Source: Bdellovibrio sp. BCCA (GTDB lineage Bacteria; Bdellovibrionota; Bdellovibrionia; Bdellovibrionales; Bdellovibrionaceae). From it: a stretch of 64,000 bases of DNA. How positions within the stretch are numbered: position 1 is the first letter of the stretch; each line of letters starts with the position of its first letter. Shown here in pieces: positions 7,728-11,507 of the stretch. Where the stretch lies: positions 1,674,001 to 1,738,000 of the forward strand of contig NZ_JBBNAC010000001.1 in NCBI RefSeq assembly GCF_037996825.1. The letters are read 5' to 3'. The notes under the pieces are model-generated. The model worked only from the letters and a program-made list of their open reading frames with translations. It was not told where the DNA came from and did no database searches. The translations under genes were made by a program, and so were the position numbers.

Positions 7728-8552
7728 ATGACTTCTTTACTGGCGCAGATAGATTCGCTAGGAAGATCTGTTACAAAGAATTTGGAGTACACGGCACGTG
7801 TCCTCTTGATGGTCTATCTTTCACTTCGTGCAACGATTTTAGATAAAGCCCAAGGATTTCGACAAATTTTCGGCGTCATTTCTGCGCAGATTTATTTTAC
7901 AGGTTGGCAGGCTCTTCCGTTGATTTCCGTTTTAGCTCTCGGTGTGGGATCTATCATGATTCTGCAGTCGCTATCGAACCTAAGTCTTTTAGGTGGAACG
8001 CAAATGATCGGAAACTTTCTGATCGTGATGGTTTTGCGCGAGGCGGGACCTTTGCTGGTGGCTCTTGTCGTGATTGCGCGTTCCGGAACTGCGGTGGCTT
8101 CTGAGGTCGGAAATATGCGGGCAAATAGAGAAATCGAAGCTCTTGAAAGTATGGGGATTAATCCCTTGAGTTTCATCGTTTTCCCTCGTGTTATCGGTGG
8201 AATCATCAGTGTTCTAGGATTGGCCTTTTACTTTAACGTCATTGCCTTGATCGGTGGCTTTCTTGTCACGCGATTTGTGCAGGATATGCCATTTACGTTT
8301 TATACGGACTCTTTGATGAAGGCTTTTGCTAAAGAAGACGTCCTGATTTTCCTGCTTAAAAACGGATTTAGCGGCATGATTATTTTCGTTGTTTCTTGTT
8401 TTCAAGGACTCTCTGTGAAACGCAGTCCGCACGAAGTTCCCCAGGTCACAACTCAGGCTGTGGTGAACAGTATTATTTTCGTCGTTATTTTTAATCTAAT
8501 GATTTCAGCTTTGTTTTATTTAAATCAACTTCGCACTTTAGGGGTGGTCTAA
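7728..8552 (+). CDS. mlaE: MlaE-family lipid ABC transporter permease
   Basis: 274 residues with the conserved MlaE core: about five membrane helices and the LREAGPLLVALVVIARSGTAVASEVGNMR segment (near residues 104-132) followed by EIEALESMGINPLSFIVFPRV, the coupling region that contacts the ATPase. MlaE forms the inner-membrane channel that moves phospholipid between membranes with an MCE protein (MlaD). Its stop overlaps the ATPase start by one base (TAATG), so mlaE, mlaF-like and mlaD are one operon. Confidence 0.93.
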   Translation: MTSLLAQIDSLGRSVTKNLEYTARVLLMVYLSLRATILDKAQGFRQIFGVISAQIYFTGWQALPLISVLALGVGSIMILQSLSNLSLLGGTQMIGNFLIVMVLREAGPLLVALVVIARSGTAVASEVGNMRANREIEALESMGINPLSFIVFPRVIGGIISVLGLAFYFNVIALIGGFLVTRFVQDMPFTFYTDSLMKAFAKEDVLIFLLKNGFSGMIIFVVSCFQGLSVKRSPHEVPQVTTQAVVNSIIFVVIFNLMISALFYLNQLRTLGVV

Positions 8553-9262
8553 TGAAAATCGAAAATCTTAAGTTTGAAGGTGTATCGTTCACTCATGACG
8601 GACAAGATCCGATTGTTCAAAATGTTGAATTTGACTTCCCGATGAATGAAATTTTATGGGTGAAAGCCGAAGAGGGTGCGGGTAAAAGTTCGCTTTTGCA
8701 AATTCTTGCGGGTTTACAAATTCCCCAGTCGGGAAAGTATTTGATTAACGGTGAAAACGTTGTCGACATGTCGTTTGAAGAGTTTTTGCCGTATCGTTTG
8801 CAAATCGGTTATTCGTTTGACTATGGTGGTTTGATTAACAATCGCACGTTGTTTGATAATCTGATGTTGCCTCTTCTTTATCATAAAGTCGTAACGCCGG
8901 CCGAAGCCAAAGAACGTGTTGAAAGCATGTTTAAGGAATTTGGTGTTGAAAAATTCGCTCATGAAAGACCAGCGCATGTGCCGGGTCGTGTGCGTAAGTT
9001 GACTTGTTTAATGCGTGCGTTAGTGATGCGTCCGCAAGTTCTTTTGTTGGATGATCCGAGTGTGGGTTTAGGGCAGGACAGCGTTTATCTCTTTGTCGAT
9101 CACGTCCATAAACTTCGCAAAGAAGGTTTCTTTAATCATGTTTTCATTAGTTCTTATGATGAAAAGTTCATGAATCTGTTTGCTTATCAAATTATTCACT
9201 TGGATGAAGGTCAGCTATACTATCAAGCTGTAGATCCTGAGAAAAGAGTTGTTCATCTATGA
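8552..9262 (+). CDS. MlaF-like ABC ATPase with degenerate catalytic motifs
   Basis: 236 residues, by position the ATPase of the Mla complex between mlaE and mlaD. Walker A reads AEEGAGKSS (residues 39-47; the first Gly is Ala, Lys kept). The Q-loop reads YSFDYGGL (Gln replaced by Asp, near 90). The signature reads HVPGRVRKL instead of LSGG (near 143). Walker B is LLLDDPSVGL (catalytic Glu is Asp, near 169). The D-loop is GLGQ and the H-switch His is missing in ISSYDEK (near 200). ATP binding may remain but normal hydrolysis is doubtful. The reading frame is intact and overlaps both neighbours, so it is not a decayed pseudogene. Confidence 0.85.
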   Translation: MKIENLKFEGVSFTHDGQDPIVQNVEFDFPMNEILWVKAEEGAGKSSLLQILAGLQIPQSGKYLINGENVVDMSFEEFLPYRLQIGYSFDYGGLINNRTLFDNLMLPLLYHKVVTPAEAKERVESMFKEFGVEKFAHERPAHVPGRVRKLTCLMRALVMRPQVLLLDDPSVGLGQDSVYLFVDHVHKLRKEGFFNHVFISSYDEKFMNLFAYQIIHLDEGQLYYQAVDPEKRVVHL

Positions 9263-10215
9263 TGAAGGTGAAGTTCAATAAATTTGAAAGAGTCGCGGGA
9301 TTGTTCGTGATGCTCGCTATTCTTGGGGTGATCCTCACGGCATTGAGTGCCGCCATCAAGCAAGGCTGGTTTGAGCCTAAGGTTCGCTATACGACAACTT
9401 TCGAAAACGCCGATGGAATTCATCAGGGAACTCTGGTTCAGATGTCGGGTCTTCGTGCGGGCGCTGTTGAAACTGTGGAATTGGAAAATGATAATAAAAT
9501 CCGCGTGGGATTTTATGTTTTAGGAAAATTCCAAAACAGAATTCGCGAAAACAGCACCGTGCAGCTGATTCGTCCTTTTATCATCGGTGAAAGAGTTTTG
9601 GATCTTTCTGTTGGCACTGAGCAATTTGAGATCATTCCGGCGCAGAGTGCGGTGAAGTCTCTTGAAACAGTGGATTTGATGACTCTGATGAGCGGTAAAA
9701 ATATGAACACTTACCTCTCAAAATTGGGCGGTATCTTAGAGAGCATGCAAGTCATTATGGATGCTTTTGCGGATAAAAGCCGTGCAGAGAGTCTGGTTCG
9801 TGTGATCGATAGACTTGATCCCTTAGTAAAAAATCTAAACACGATGTCTGTGGAAGTGATCAAACTTTCCAAGCAGGCGACGCATGATGATGGCGTGCAA
9901 AAACTCATGGGGAACTTGGCGATCACGACAAAAGAAATCAATAAGATTTTGCCTGAACTCAATGAGCAAAATCCGGATCTTGCCAAAGATCTTGCAACGA
10001 TGACACAAAACTTGGCGACTGTGACAAAAGCTTTAGGGCCTGCAATGCAAGCTGTTGAGCCGGAGCTTCCGGGGGCTAGCATGAAACTGGTTCAGGCCTT
10101 GAATGAAACCGTCGTGGTTTTAAAAGCAATGCAAAAGAGCTTCTTCATGCGCGGAAGTGTGCGTGAAGTGAAAGAAGAAGAAGCCACAGAGCGCCTTCCA
10201 GCCAATAGTAAGTAA
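9259..10215 (+). CDS. mlaD: MlaD-like MCE-domain protein
   Basis: 318 residues: one N-terminal membrane helix (VAGLFVMLAILGVILTALSAA), then an MCE domain (about 40-120) with GIHQGTLVQMSGLRAGAVETVEL and STVQLIRPFIIGERVLDLSVG, followed by a long helical tail (about 150-300). It forms the periplasmic ring or tunnel that receives lipid from the MlaE-ATPase complex. It is longer than E. coli MlaD (183), with the extra length helical as in longer MCE proteins. It overlaps the ATPase gene by 4 bp (ATGA). Confidence 0.93.
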   Translation: MMKVKFNKFERVAGLFVMLAILGVILTALSAAIKQGWFEPKVRYTTTFENADGIHQGTLVQMSGLRAGAVETVELENDNKIRVGFYVLGKFQNRIRENSTVQLIRPFIIGERVLDLSVGTEQFEIIPAQSAVKSLETVDLMTLMSGKNMNTYLSKLGGILESMQVIMDAFADKSRAESLVRVIDRLDPLVKNLNTMSVEVIKLSKQATHDDGVQKLMGNLAITTKEINKILPELNEQNPDLAKDLATMTQNLATVTKALGPAMQAVEPELPGASMKLVQALNETVVVLKAMQKSFFMRGSVREVKEEEATERLPANSK

Positions 10216-10256: not shown

Positions 10257-11507
10257 GTGTTAGTTGGTCACTTATTCCGTCATTTTATTTTTTCTAAAAG
10301 AGCTGGGGCTTTGATTCGCAGAATCTCCTGGCTTTCGTTGATTGGAATTTCGATCAGTGTGACAGCCTTTCTGGTCGTTCTATTTGTGATGAATGGAATG
10401 AATGCGTCTATTAAAAAACGCATCTTAGGTTTAGAACCTCATCTTTACGTTCAAGCTTCAGGAATTTCTACAGCGGCGGGCCTTGAAGCTCATCCTGTAT
10501 TCCAGCGCCTTAAAGAGGAACCTGAAAACAAAGCCTACGTTTATGAAACTCAAGACGTGATCATTCGCAGTCAAGACGGGCAATTCCGTGGAGGCGTGGC
10601 TCGGGGAGTGACGAAGGACAGTCTTGGTTACTTTATCGAGCAGCTTCAAAAAATGGAGAAAAAGAATCAGGATAAAGATTCTCCTGCGTATTTCTGGGAT
10701 CCTCATGATGTTCCAGAGACTGGCGAAGTGATTATGGGTGTGGATTTGGCGCAGTCTTTGGGCGTTTTTGAAGGCGATTATGTGACTTTGGTAGCGCCGT
10801 CAGGTTTGTTATTGCCTCCAGGGGAAACACCTAAGTTTGAAAGAGTGAAAATCAAACGTATCGTGACGACGAGTCTTCCGGATGTGGATTCGCAGTATAT
10901 CTTTTATCAACGAGAGAAAACTTTAAACTCGTTGGTTAATGAAGGCATGCGCAAGCTGGGGATCGAAGTGTGGCTTGCGGATGAAAGCAAAGTTGAAAAT
11001 GTGAAAGAAGATCTGCTTAAGTTTTCTGACGTGAGTGTGGAAACTTGGATGGACCGCAACTCGGCGTTGTTGTATGCACTTAAGCTGGAAAAGCTGACTA
11101 TTGGAACCTTCTTAGGGCTTGCAGGAATTATCGCGGCAAGCTCTATTTTAACGGTGTTGGCTCTTTTGTTGTCGCAAAAAAGAAGAGACATTGCGATTTT
11201 GCGTACAATTGGTTTTTCAGGAAAGCAAACGGTTCGTACGTTCACGCTTTTGGGGTTTTTATTGGCATCCGTCGGAGTTTTAACCGGAGTGATCGTCGGA
11301 ACAGGATTGAGTCTTTATATTCAAGCTCATCCGCTTAAATTAATTTCGTCGCAAATTTATTACGACCCGTCATTGCCAGCTTTGGTTGATTACGGACTTG
11401 TCTTTGGTGTTCTGGTTGTCAGTGCTTTGATTGCCTGGTTCGGATCTTATCTTCCGGCAAGAACCGCATCGGAAGTGAAGCCTTCCGATGCTCTAAGAAT
11501 GAAATAA
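10257..11507 (+). CDS. LolC/LolE-like lipoprotein-release ABC permease
   Basis: 416 residues with the FtsX/MacB-type layout: membrane helix near residues 20-45 (LIRRISWLSLIGISISVTAFLVV), a large periplasmic domain (about 50-270) and three C-terminal helices with KRRDIAILRTIGFSGKQTVR and a closing PARTASEVKPSDALR. LolC/E extracts lipoproteins from the inner membrane with LolD. No lolD lies next to it. It follows mlaD by 41 bp, so co-transcription with the mla genes is plausible. Start is GTG with AAGGGG directly abutting, which is unusual spacing. Confidence 0.87.
   Translation: MLVGHLFRHFIFSKRAGALIRRISWLSLIGISISVTAFLVVLFVMNGMNASIKKRILGLEPHLYVQASGISTAAGLEAHPVFQRLKEEPENKAYVYETQDVIIRSQDGQFRGGVARGVTKDSLGYFIEQLQKMEKKNQDKDSPAYFWDPHDVPETGEVIMGVDLAQSLGVFEGDYVTLVAPSGLLLPPGETPKFERVKIKRIVTTSLPDVDSQYIFYQREKTLNSLVNEGMRKLGIEVWLADESKVENVKEDLLKFSDVSVETWMDRNSALLYALKLEKLTIGTFLGLAGIIAASSILTVLALLLSQKRRDIAILRTIGFSGKQTVRTFTLLGFLLASVGVLTGVIVGTGLSLYIQAHPLKLISSQIYYDPSLPALVDYGLVFGVLVVSALIAWFGSYLPARTASEVKPSDALRMK

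Follow-up and report, generated by a model that had tools for sequence, protein, structure and literature searches.

A long-conserved MlaF-like subunit with altered catalytic motifs in Bdellovibrionota suggests an unpowered or merely switched lipid channel

The nucleotide-binding subunit of an MCE-ABC transporter is a protein of a known kind. At each ATP site of an ABC dimer, one chain contributes the Walker, Q- and H-residues and its partner the signature, as set out in PMC7756269. In the powered Mla system, as portrayed in PMC10212509, MlaE without ATP is open towards MlaD, and the passage of lipid from MlaD to MlaC is spontaneous and is prevented by ATP hydrolysis. The same source treats as disputed both the direction of Mla-type lipid transport (out, in or both) and the role of ATP in setting it. 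Here we describe a Mla locus in which the ATPase subunit has lost most of the residues of this catalytic machinery.

An intact MlaF-like gene with altered motifs

The window, the whole stretch of 64,000 nucleotides that was analysed, comes from a Bdellovibrio chromosome (assembly 4.01 Mb). It encodes a degenerate MlaF-like ABC nucleotide-binding protein (NBD), whose best-matching named relatives are Bdellovibrio records (94 and 89%), between a permease and an MCE protein:

7728..8552, + strand: mlaE, permease of 274 aa (Pfam PF02405, 210.9 bits)
8552..9262, + strand: degenerate MlaF-like NBD of 236 aa, intact frame
9259..10215, + strand: mlaD, long-type MCE protein of 318 aa with one MCE domain at residues 41-118 (Pfam PF02470, 52.7 bits; family alignment)

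The mlaE stop and the NBD start overlap in TAATG, and the NBD stop and the mlaD start in ATGA. A preliminary description of this DNA, made from the sequence alone, had reported an intact frame translationally coupled to both neighbours; the frame and the overlaps are as it stated, and the overlaps suggest that translation of the three genes may indeed be coupled.

The NBD matches Pfam PF00005 (ABC_tran) at 71.9 bits against a cut-off of 25, and its AlphaFold2 model is that of a regular NBD (pLDDT 94.4, pTM 0.90). All 50 of the 50 PDB entries listed for this model are ABC proteins, among them FtsE, YbbA, LolD, MacB and MlaF; since the hits of VIA-align and Foldseek are drawn from many ABC families, they show the fold and not the subfamily. 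Compared with MlaF (6xgz_A), the model gave a VIA Z of 26.1 and an rmsd of 2.7 over 229. The NCBIfam MlaF equivalog NF008809, against which the canonical MlaFs of the genome were not run, scored 72.9 bits with the NBD (cut-off 441). The AlphaFold2 model of the window MlaE (pLDDT 84.1) matches E. coli MlaE 6xbd with a TM of 0.80.

Motifs were assigned by aligning the NBD end to end with E. coli MlaF (~23% identity), and the codons of each were checked:

8666..8689, + strand: Walker A, AEEGAGKS, with E. coli G41 replaced by A39
8819..8821, + strand: Asp90, replacing the Q-loop Gln (E. coli Q92)
8978..8992, + strand: signature VPGRV, residues V143-P144-G145-R146-V147, replacing E. coli L145-S146-G147-G148-M149 (LSGG(Q/M))
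9038..9055, + strand: Walker B, VLLLDD, with Asp168 replacing the catalytic Glu (E. coli E170)
9065..9079, + strand: D-loop, GLGQD replacing G-L-D-P, with E. coli D176-P177 replaced by G174-Q175
9155..9157, + strand: Tyr202, replacing the H-switch His (E. coli H203)

The alignment bears out every motif change named in the preliminary description. The signature has lost its Ser (to Pro144) and its second Gly (to Arg146), and Walker A fails the consensus GxxGxGK[ST] at the first Gly, which is Ala, with Lys and Ser kept. The retained residues, Walker A Lys45 (K47) and Ser46 (for T48) and Walker B Asp167 (D169), had no place in that earlier account. The 236 aa of the NBD end short of the C-terminal extension of E. 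coli MlaF, which it lacks.

Fixation, depth and selection

Fixation of the substitutions in related genomes had been set beforehand as a check. The same substitutions are found in 23 of 23 readable copies in the genus, from the window's own genome and 22 of the 23 other genus genomes (74-94% identity), and no close relative with canonical motifs, which by the preliminary description would have refuted its observation, is present among these copies; in the remaining genome (G010) the contig ends inside mlaE. The motif loss is old and fixed. Across the order, MlaE, which is better conserved than the NBD, was used as bait with a threshold of E 1e-70, and a matching locus was found in 93 of 140 genomes. 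The neighbouring NBD was readable in 90 and is degenerate in every one of them; contigs end at the locus in G136 and G010, and in G039 MlaE runs into an antiporter-like frame. Two further NBDs (G085 and G103) are without C-terminal motifs and were left out of the 88 that cover all three catalytic sites. The Q-loop Gln is kept in 1/90 (Asp in 74, Glu in 11), the Walker B Glu in 9/88 (Asp in 72) and the H-switch His in 1/88. Counted per protein, all three have been lost in 77 of the 88, a single one remains in 11, and no protein has two. Of the 90, 67 retain the Walker A Lys, and the others have Arg (13), Gln (9) or Leu (1) instead. In G029 and G035 (L051, L052), an extreme form of the motif loss, the P-loop is unrecognisable, with the adjoining mlaE and mlaD kept (MlaE 54 and 53% identical to that of the window). 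Given the 23 losses of the lysine and the state of the P-loop in these two genomes, nucleotide seems dispensable in some lineages.

The G039 locus (L176, G039:C68), where MlaE is in frame with a cation/proton antiporter-like protein in an open frame of 667 aa, is probably a misassembled draft contig. In genus g30 of the same family, all 14 of 14 genomes (G057-G070) lacked this locus's MlaE in the order-wide search, and those g30 genomes covered by the MlaE count have two MlaEs each, compared to about five elsewhere.

Phylum-wide, MlaE matched at E 1e-40 in 120 of 368 genomes. Beyond the 93, we examined 20 loci; their 19 genomes comprise 4 from the order, where the match was weaker, 3 from elsewhere in the class and 12 from elsewhere in the phylum, and eight of the 120 were left out (G162, G181, G195, G196, G261, G301, G366, G367). 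Among the 18 outer loci with a readable NBD, in an alignment read by eye, 13 have lost all three catalytic residues and 4 retain one. The NBD of L220 keeps Gln and Glu and is without His or a canonical signature. Several outer rows are very divergent, and the outer lineages are mostly degenerate too. A peptide-pattern scan of named bacterial and archaeal genomes gave 61 relatives, 58 of them in records labelled Bdellovibrionota or its groups or in L071, L074, L079 and L089, which have other labels and a gene order matching the locus; as the patterns were derived from the family itself, the scan does not show that such proteins are absent from other phyla. The contigs L071 (CALQIT020000082.1) and L089 (JAQTMV010000008.1) carry the locus and its neighbours; their labels, Streptomyces griseus and Methylococcales, are probably wrong, and both are likely to be drafts from Bdellovibrionota.

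A first NBD tree drew its 88 rows from the order (44 of its 90 NBDs), the outer loci (18) and sequences labelled canonical (26); it placed the canonical rows on one side with an SH-aLRT of 86, and the outer L212, L217 and L220 outside a supported cluster of 59 pseudo rows. One row initially labelled as a canonical MlaF, C_L235, reads like FtsE. A second tree of 80 rows was computed with the catalytic columns and eight long or mislabelled rows removed (L211, L212, L214, L217, L218, L220, L053, L235), and 55 pseudo-NBDs fell on one side of a branch with an SH-aLRT of 100. The pseudo-NBDs therefore group together even without their catalytic columns. Within its own genome the nearest canonical match of the NBD is an MlaF (32%), and few non-Mla ABC proteins were included in the trees.

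The NBD frames are open across the orthologues. Median dN/dS of the NBD was 0.018 (9 unsaturated pairs of 253), and median pN/pS over all 253 pairs was 0.14 for the NBD, 0.15 for mlaE and 0.24 for mlaD. The gene is under purifying selection. Most loci of the order preserve all or some of the arrangement ridA, DUF218, mlaE, NBD, mlaD, lolCE, dapD. Some distant relatives have an extra gene of about 160-200 aa between mlaD and lolCE, with the shared pattern SRW..., IIKQQ..., GQ.VEWN (L042:9160-9639, L043:7088-7627, L081:6626-7162, L088:6703-7314, L098:6610-7191, L106:6685-7224, L112:6755-7243); it is missing in the window, and no credible match was found in the window's own genome (best E 0.218).

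At greater depth the constraint on the NBD is relaxed relative to a canonical Mla system at 3320 kb of the same genome, as seen from identities to the own-genome copies in nine genomes. Four genomes of other families gave MlaE/NBD identities of 58-63/38-46% at this locus, compared to 62-65/59-67% at the 3320 kb system, and G024 gave 75/61 and 68/74, respectively; the four genus genomes showed no clear difference. Column entropies of 88 pseudo and 23 canonical rows are best compared within a group, since the canonical set is small and closely related: the motif columns are variable in the pseudo-NBDs (mean 1.25-2.03 bits) and less so in canonical MlaFs (0.00-0.69), whereas one segment, taken without residue 90, is conserved equally well in both sets, at 1.05 bits in the pseudo and 1.10 in the canonical rows over backgrounds of 2.08 and 1.31. 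This segment is:

8768..8884, + strand: NBD residues 73-111, spanning the Q-loop and the first part of the helical subdomain, by entropy the family's most conserved stretch and the proposed seat of the MlaE coupling helix

This part of ABC NBDs helps to form the groove for the permease coupling helix. The best-conserved part of the NBD is therefore likely to be its permease-facing segment.

The residues that are kept could point to a slow but real ATPase, a homodimer binding ATP through Lys45, Ser46 and Asp167, with Asp168 as a poor base, and powering slow transport. All three binding residues are present in every genus copy, E. coli MlaF E170Q is reported in PMC7784689 to retain about 20% of its ATPase activity, and Asp is given in PMC7756269 as the second commonest change in the degenerate sites of human transporters. 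Against this, the same chain is without the Q-loop Gln, the H-switch His, the D-loop Asp and the signature Ser and Gly, the Walker A Lys is lost in 23/90 orthologues, and the motif columns are free to vary within the family. We consider a slow ATPase unlikely, although it is the strongest of the alternatives.

The MlaE coupling helix and the other Mla systems of the genome

In the window MlaE model, a short helix (135-141) lies between helices 92-132 and 146-185, and is the predicted coupling helix:

8127..8144, + strand: MlaE residues 134-139, REIEAL, start of the predicted coupling helix (AlphaFold2 model; codons checked)

At position 135 all 112 pseudo-locus rows have Glu (93/93 in the order and 19/19 of the outer rows with letters, one of the 20 being a gap), whereas all 41 canonical rows, which include E. 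coli and the four own-genome paralogues, have Gln. Position 134 is Arg or Lys in 90/93 order rows and 12/19 outer rows, compared to Glu or Gln in all 41 canonical rows. Columns 62, 208, 215, 238 and 256 also separate the two sets well. The rows comprise 38 distinct sequences among the 41 canonical and 89 among the 93 pseudo MlaEs, and the coupling-helix change may have been a single event. Permease and NBD have thus departed jointly from the canonical pair. The change from Gln to Glu is an easily read marker with which other genomes can be searched for such systems.

The preliminary description had called for a search for a second MlaF. The genome contains four other MlaE genes and, adjoining them, three MlaFs with canonical motifs (2975, 3320 and 3704 kb types); the operon itself has no second NBD chain. 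At L038:1880-4103 (3.703-3.706 Mb) a canonical MlaF, with Tyr for the first signature Gly, has as neighbours one MlaD and a pair of dissimilar MlaE-like permeases, an arrangement suggestive of a heterodimeric permease. Mycobacterial Mce systems have such a permease heterodimer, YrbE A/B, to which this pair can be likened. The MlaD of the 2975 kb system (L036:316-1686, 2.975 Mb) has 456 aa; its C-terminal part may form strands and it could be of a trans-envelope type. A protein with two MCE domains is encoded at L039:1622-2530 (2.142 Mb); the stretch examined around it contains neither an MlaE nor an ABC gene.

With three canonical MlaFs at hand, the NBD could pair on MlaE with one of them, which would supply the hydrolysis. 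In mycobacteria one ATPase is common to the Mce systems, according to PMC9947336. We surveyed seven genomes that carry this locus and few MlaEs. The 2975 kb type is present in 7/7, but the 3320 kb type is missing in 2/7 (G029, G035) and the 3704 kb type in 5/7 (G055, G131, G225, G227, G228), and sharing with either of these two was therefore rejected. No genome of the order was found with this locus and no other MlaE; in a count over 241 phylum genomes of at least 90 completeness, those of the order with the locus all had at least three MlaE matches. Because both the Walker B, Q- and H-residues and the signature of the NBD are degenerate, neither ATP site would be complete in a pair with a canonical MlaF. 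Every canonical MlaE examined differs from the window MlaE in the coupling helix. Furthermore, an A. baumannii MlaF with a Walker A mutation is described as dominant negative in PMC6365058; harm of this kind from a dead MlaF would favour keeping the coupling interfaces separate. These points weaken the suggestion in the preliminary description that a second subunit works with the ATPase, even with the 2975 kb type present in all seven genomes, and we regard such pairing as distinctly improbable.

The NBD might instead have left MlaE for another partner. A LolC/E-like permease (window 10257-11507) starts 42 bases 3' of mlaD without an adjacent lolD, an adjacency kept across the order, and the NCBIfam FtsE and LolD profiles score higher with the NBD than MlaF does, all of them far below cut-off. 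However, the best LolD-like NBD of the genome is encoded elsewhere (1.370 Mb, 271.5 bits), for which reason a role of the NBD as the LolC/E ATPase was rejected. The NBD gene overlaps both mlaE and mlaD, and the change in the NBD is accompanied by that in the MlaE coupling helix. A change of partner is thus very improbable. Decay or sequencing error, for which nothing speaks beyond the altered motifs themselves, is refuted by the identical substitutions in all 23 genus copies, which exclude chance or error, and by degeneracy across the order, open frames and low dN/dS.

A proposed lipid conduit and its relation to known systems

We therefore lean, with somewhat more confidence than doubt, towards the NBD being a dedicated pseudo-ATPase that clamps an MlaE-MlaF-MlaD lipid conduit running with little or no ATP hydrolysis. 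A pair of NBD copies would probably be seated on the MlaE dimer at its coupling helices, in the manner of E. coli MlaF, and presumably no longer runs the normal ATP hydrolysis cycle. They may hold MlaE in a conformation open to the MlaD channel or, by nucleotide binding alone, switch it near that conformation. We propose that a motor unable to cycle leaves a conduit in which lipid would follow its own gradient between the inner membrane and the periplasm or outer membrane, and would not be pumped. There is precedent for nucleotide gating in the D-loop mutant of ABCB2/B3, presented in PMC7756269 as a nucleotide-gated facilitator. No PF05494 (MlaA) or PF04333 (MlaC) match was found in the window's own genome by profile search; together with the long-type MlaD, this suggests that the conduit may make direct contact with the outer membrane at its far end, an arrangement proposed for V. 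parvula in PMC10665443. The passive or very slow transporter of the preliminary description fits the evidence and comes close to this reading.

Several points count against a pseudo-ATPase. Lys45, Ser46 and Asp167 are kept in Bdellovibrio and may still allow ATP binding and slow hydrolysis. Neither K47A nor E170Q of E. coli MlaF complements (PMC7367683), and according to PMC9947336 the Mce1 and Mce4 transporters become unstable with Walker B variants of MceG, so that related systems do need ATPase activity. The absence of the C-terminal extension, which stabilises the dimer in E. coli, and the Gln and Glu kept in L220 would also speak against it.

More tentatively, and with less than even confidence, we suggest that Bdellovibrionota may possess an ancient MlaE-MlaD conduit in which both ABC subunits are pseudoenzymes. 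It would form an unpowered or nucleotide-gated lipid bridge, kept apart from the powered Mla pumps by its re-specified coupling interface, and in predatory members it could carry bulk lipid either way during growth inside prey. The main text of a B. bacteriovorus Tn-seq paper (PMC6561027) does not mention Mla, lipid or ABC. Collectively, these results suggest that a motor NBD lost its fuel-burning parts long ago and conserved the part that should grip the transporter, turning a pump into an unpowered or merely switched lipid channel.

A long-conserved natural MlaEFD with a disabled motor offers an evolutionary test of the Mla direction and ATP question, and the three intact Mla systems in the same genome permit direct comparison. 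If the Bdellovibrio MlaEFD works, an MCE-ABC conduit can run without hydrolysis. We found no description of a catalytically stripped MlaF conserved at phylum level in open-licence PMC papers.

Like MlaF of the MlaFEDB systems of E. coli, P. aeruginosa and A. baumannii, the NBD has the NBD fold and is encoded with MlaE and MlaD. Unlike it, all its catalytic motifs are altered and it has no C-terminal extension; the MlaE coupling helix reads [RK]E[IV][ED]A in place of the [EQ]Q[IVL]DA of the MlaFEDB type, and the Bdellovibrio genome has no MlaA or MlaC. The three-component MlaEFD of Veillonella parvula, which we compared by its description in PMC10665443, similarly consists of MlaE, an NBD and a long MlaD without MlaA or MlaC, and the portion of that source used here reports no degenerate MlaF. 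MceG of mycobacterial Mce1 and Mce4 is likewise the NBD of an MCE transporter, and the Mce1 and Mce4 permeases are described as having an EExDA motif in a candidate coupling-helix loop (PMC9947336). MceG has canonical motifs, needs its Walker B and is common to several systems, whereas the Bdellovibrio NBD is stripped and has its own operon. E. coli PqiB and YebT are also MCE proteins, and their operons (pqiA-pqiB-ymbA and yebS-yebT) are given in PMC5561183 as having no ABC ATPase; unlike Bdellovibrio MlaD, they have several MCE domains, and their partners PqiA and YebS are not MlaE. Substitutions of the same kinds occur in heterodimeric ABC transporters that have one degenerate site (TM287/288, TAP and ABCG5/G8), for which PMC7756269 lists Walker B Glu to Asp and a changed signature, H-loop and D-loop. 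These transporters keep one complete composite site across their two chains, whereas in the Bdellovibrio NBD both half-sites are degenerate in one chain. In contrast to the heterodimers investigated to date, the Bdellovibrio ABC transporter would be degenerate at both of its nucleotide sites.
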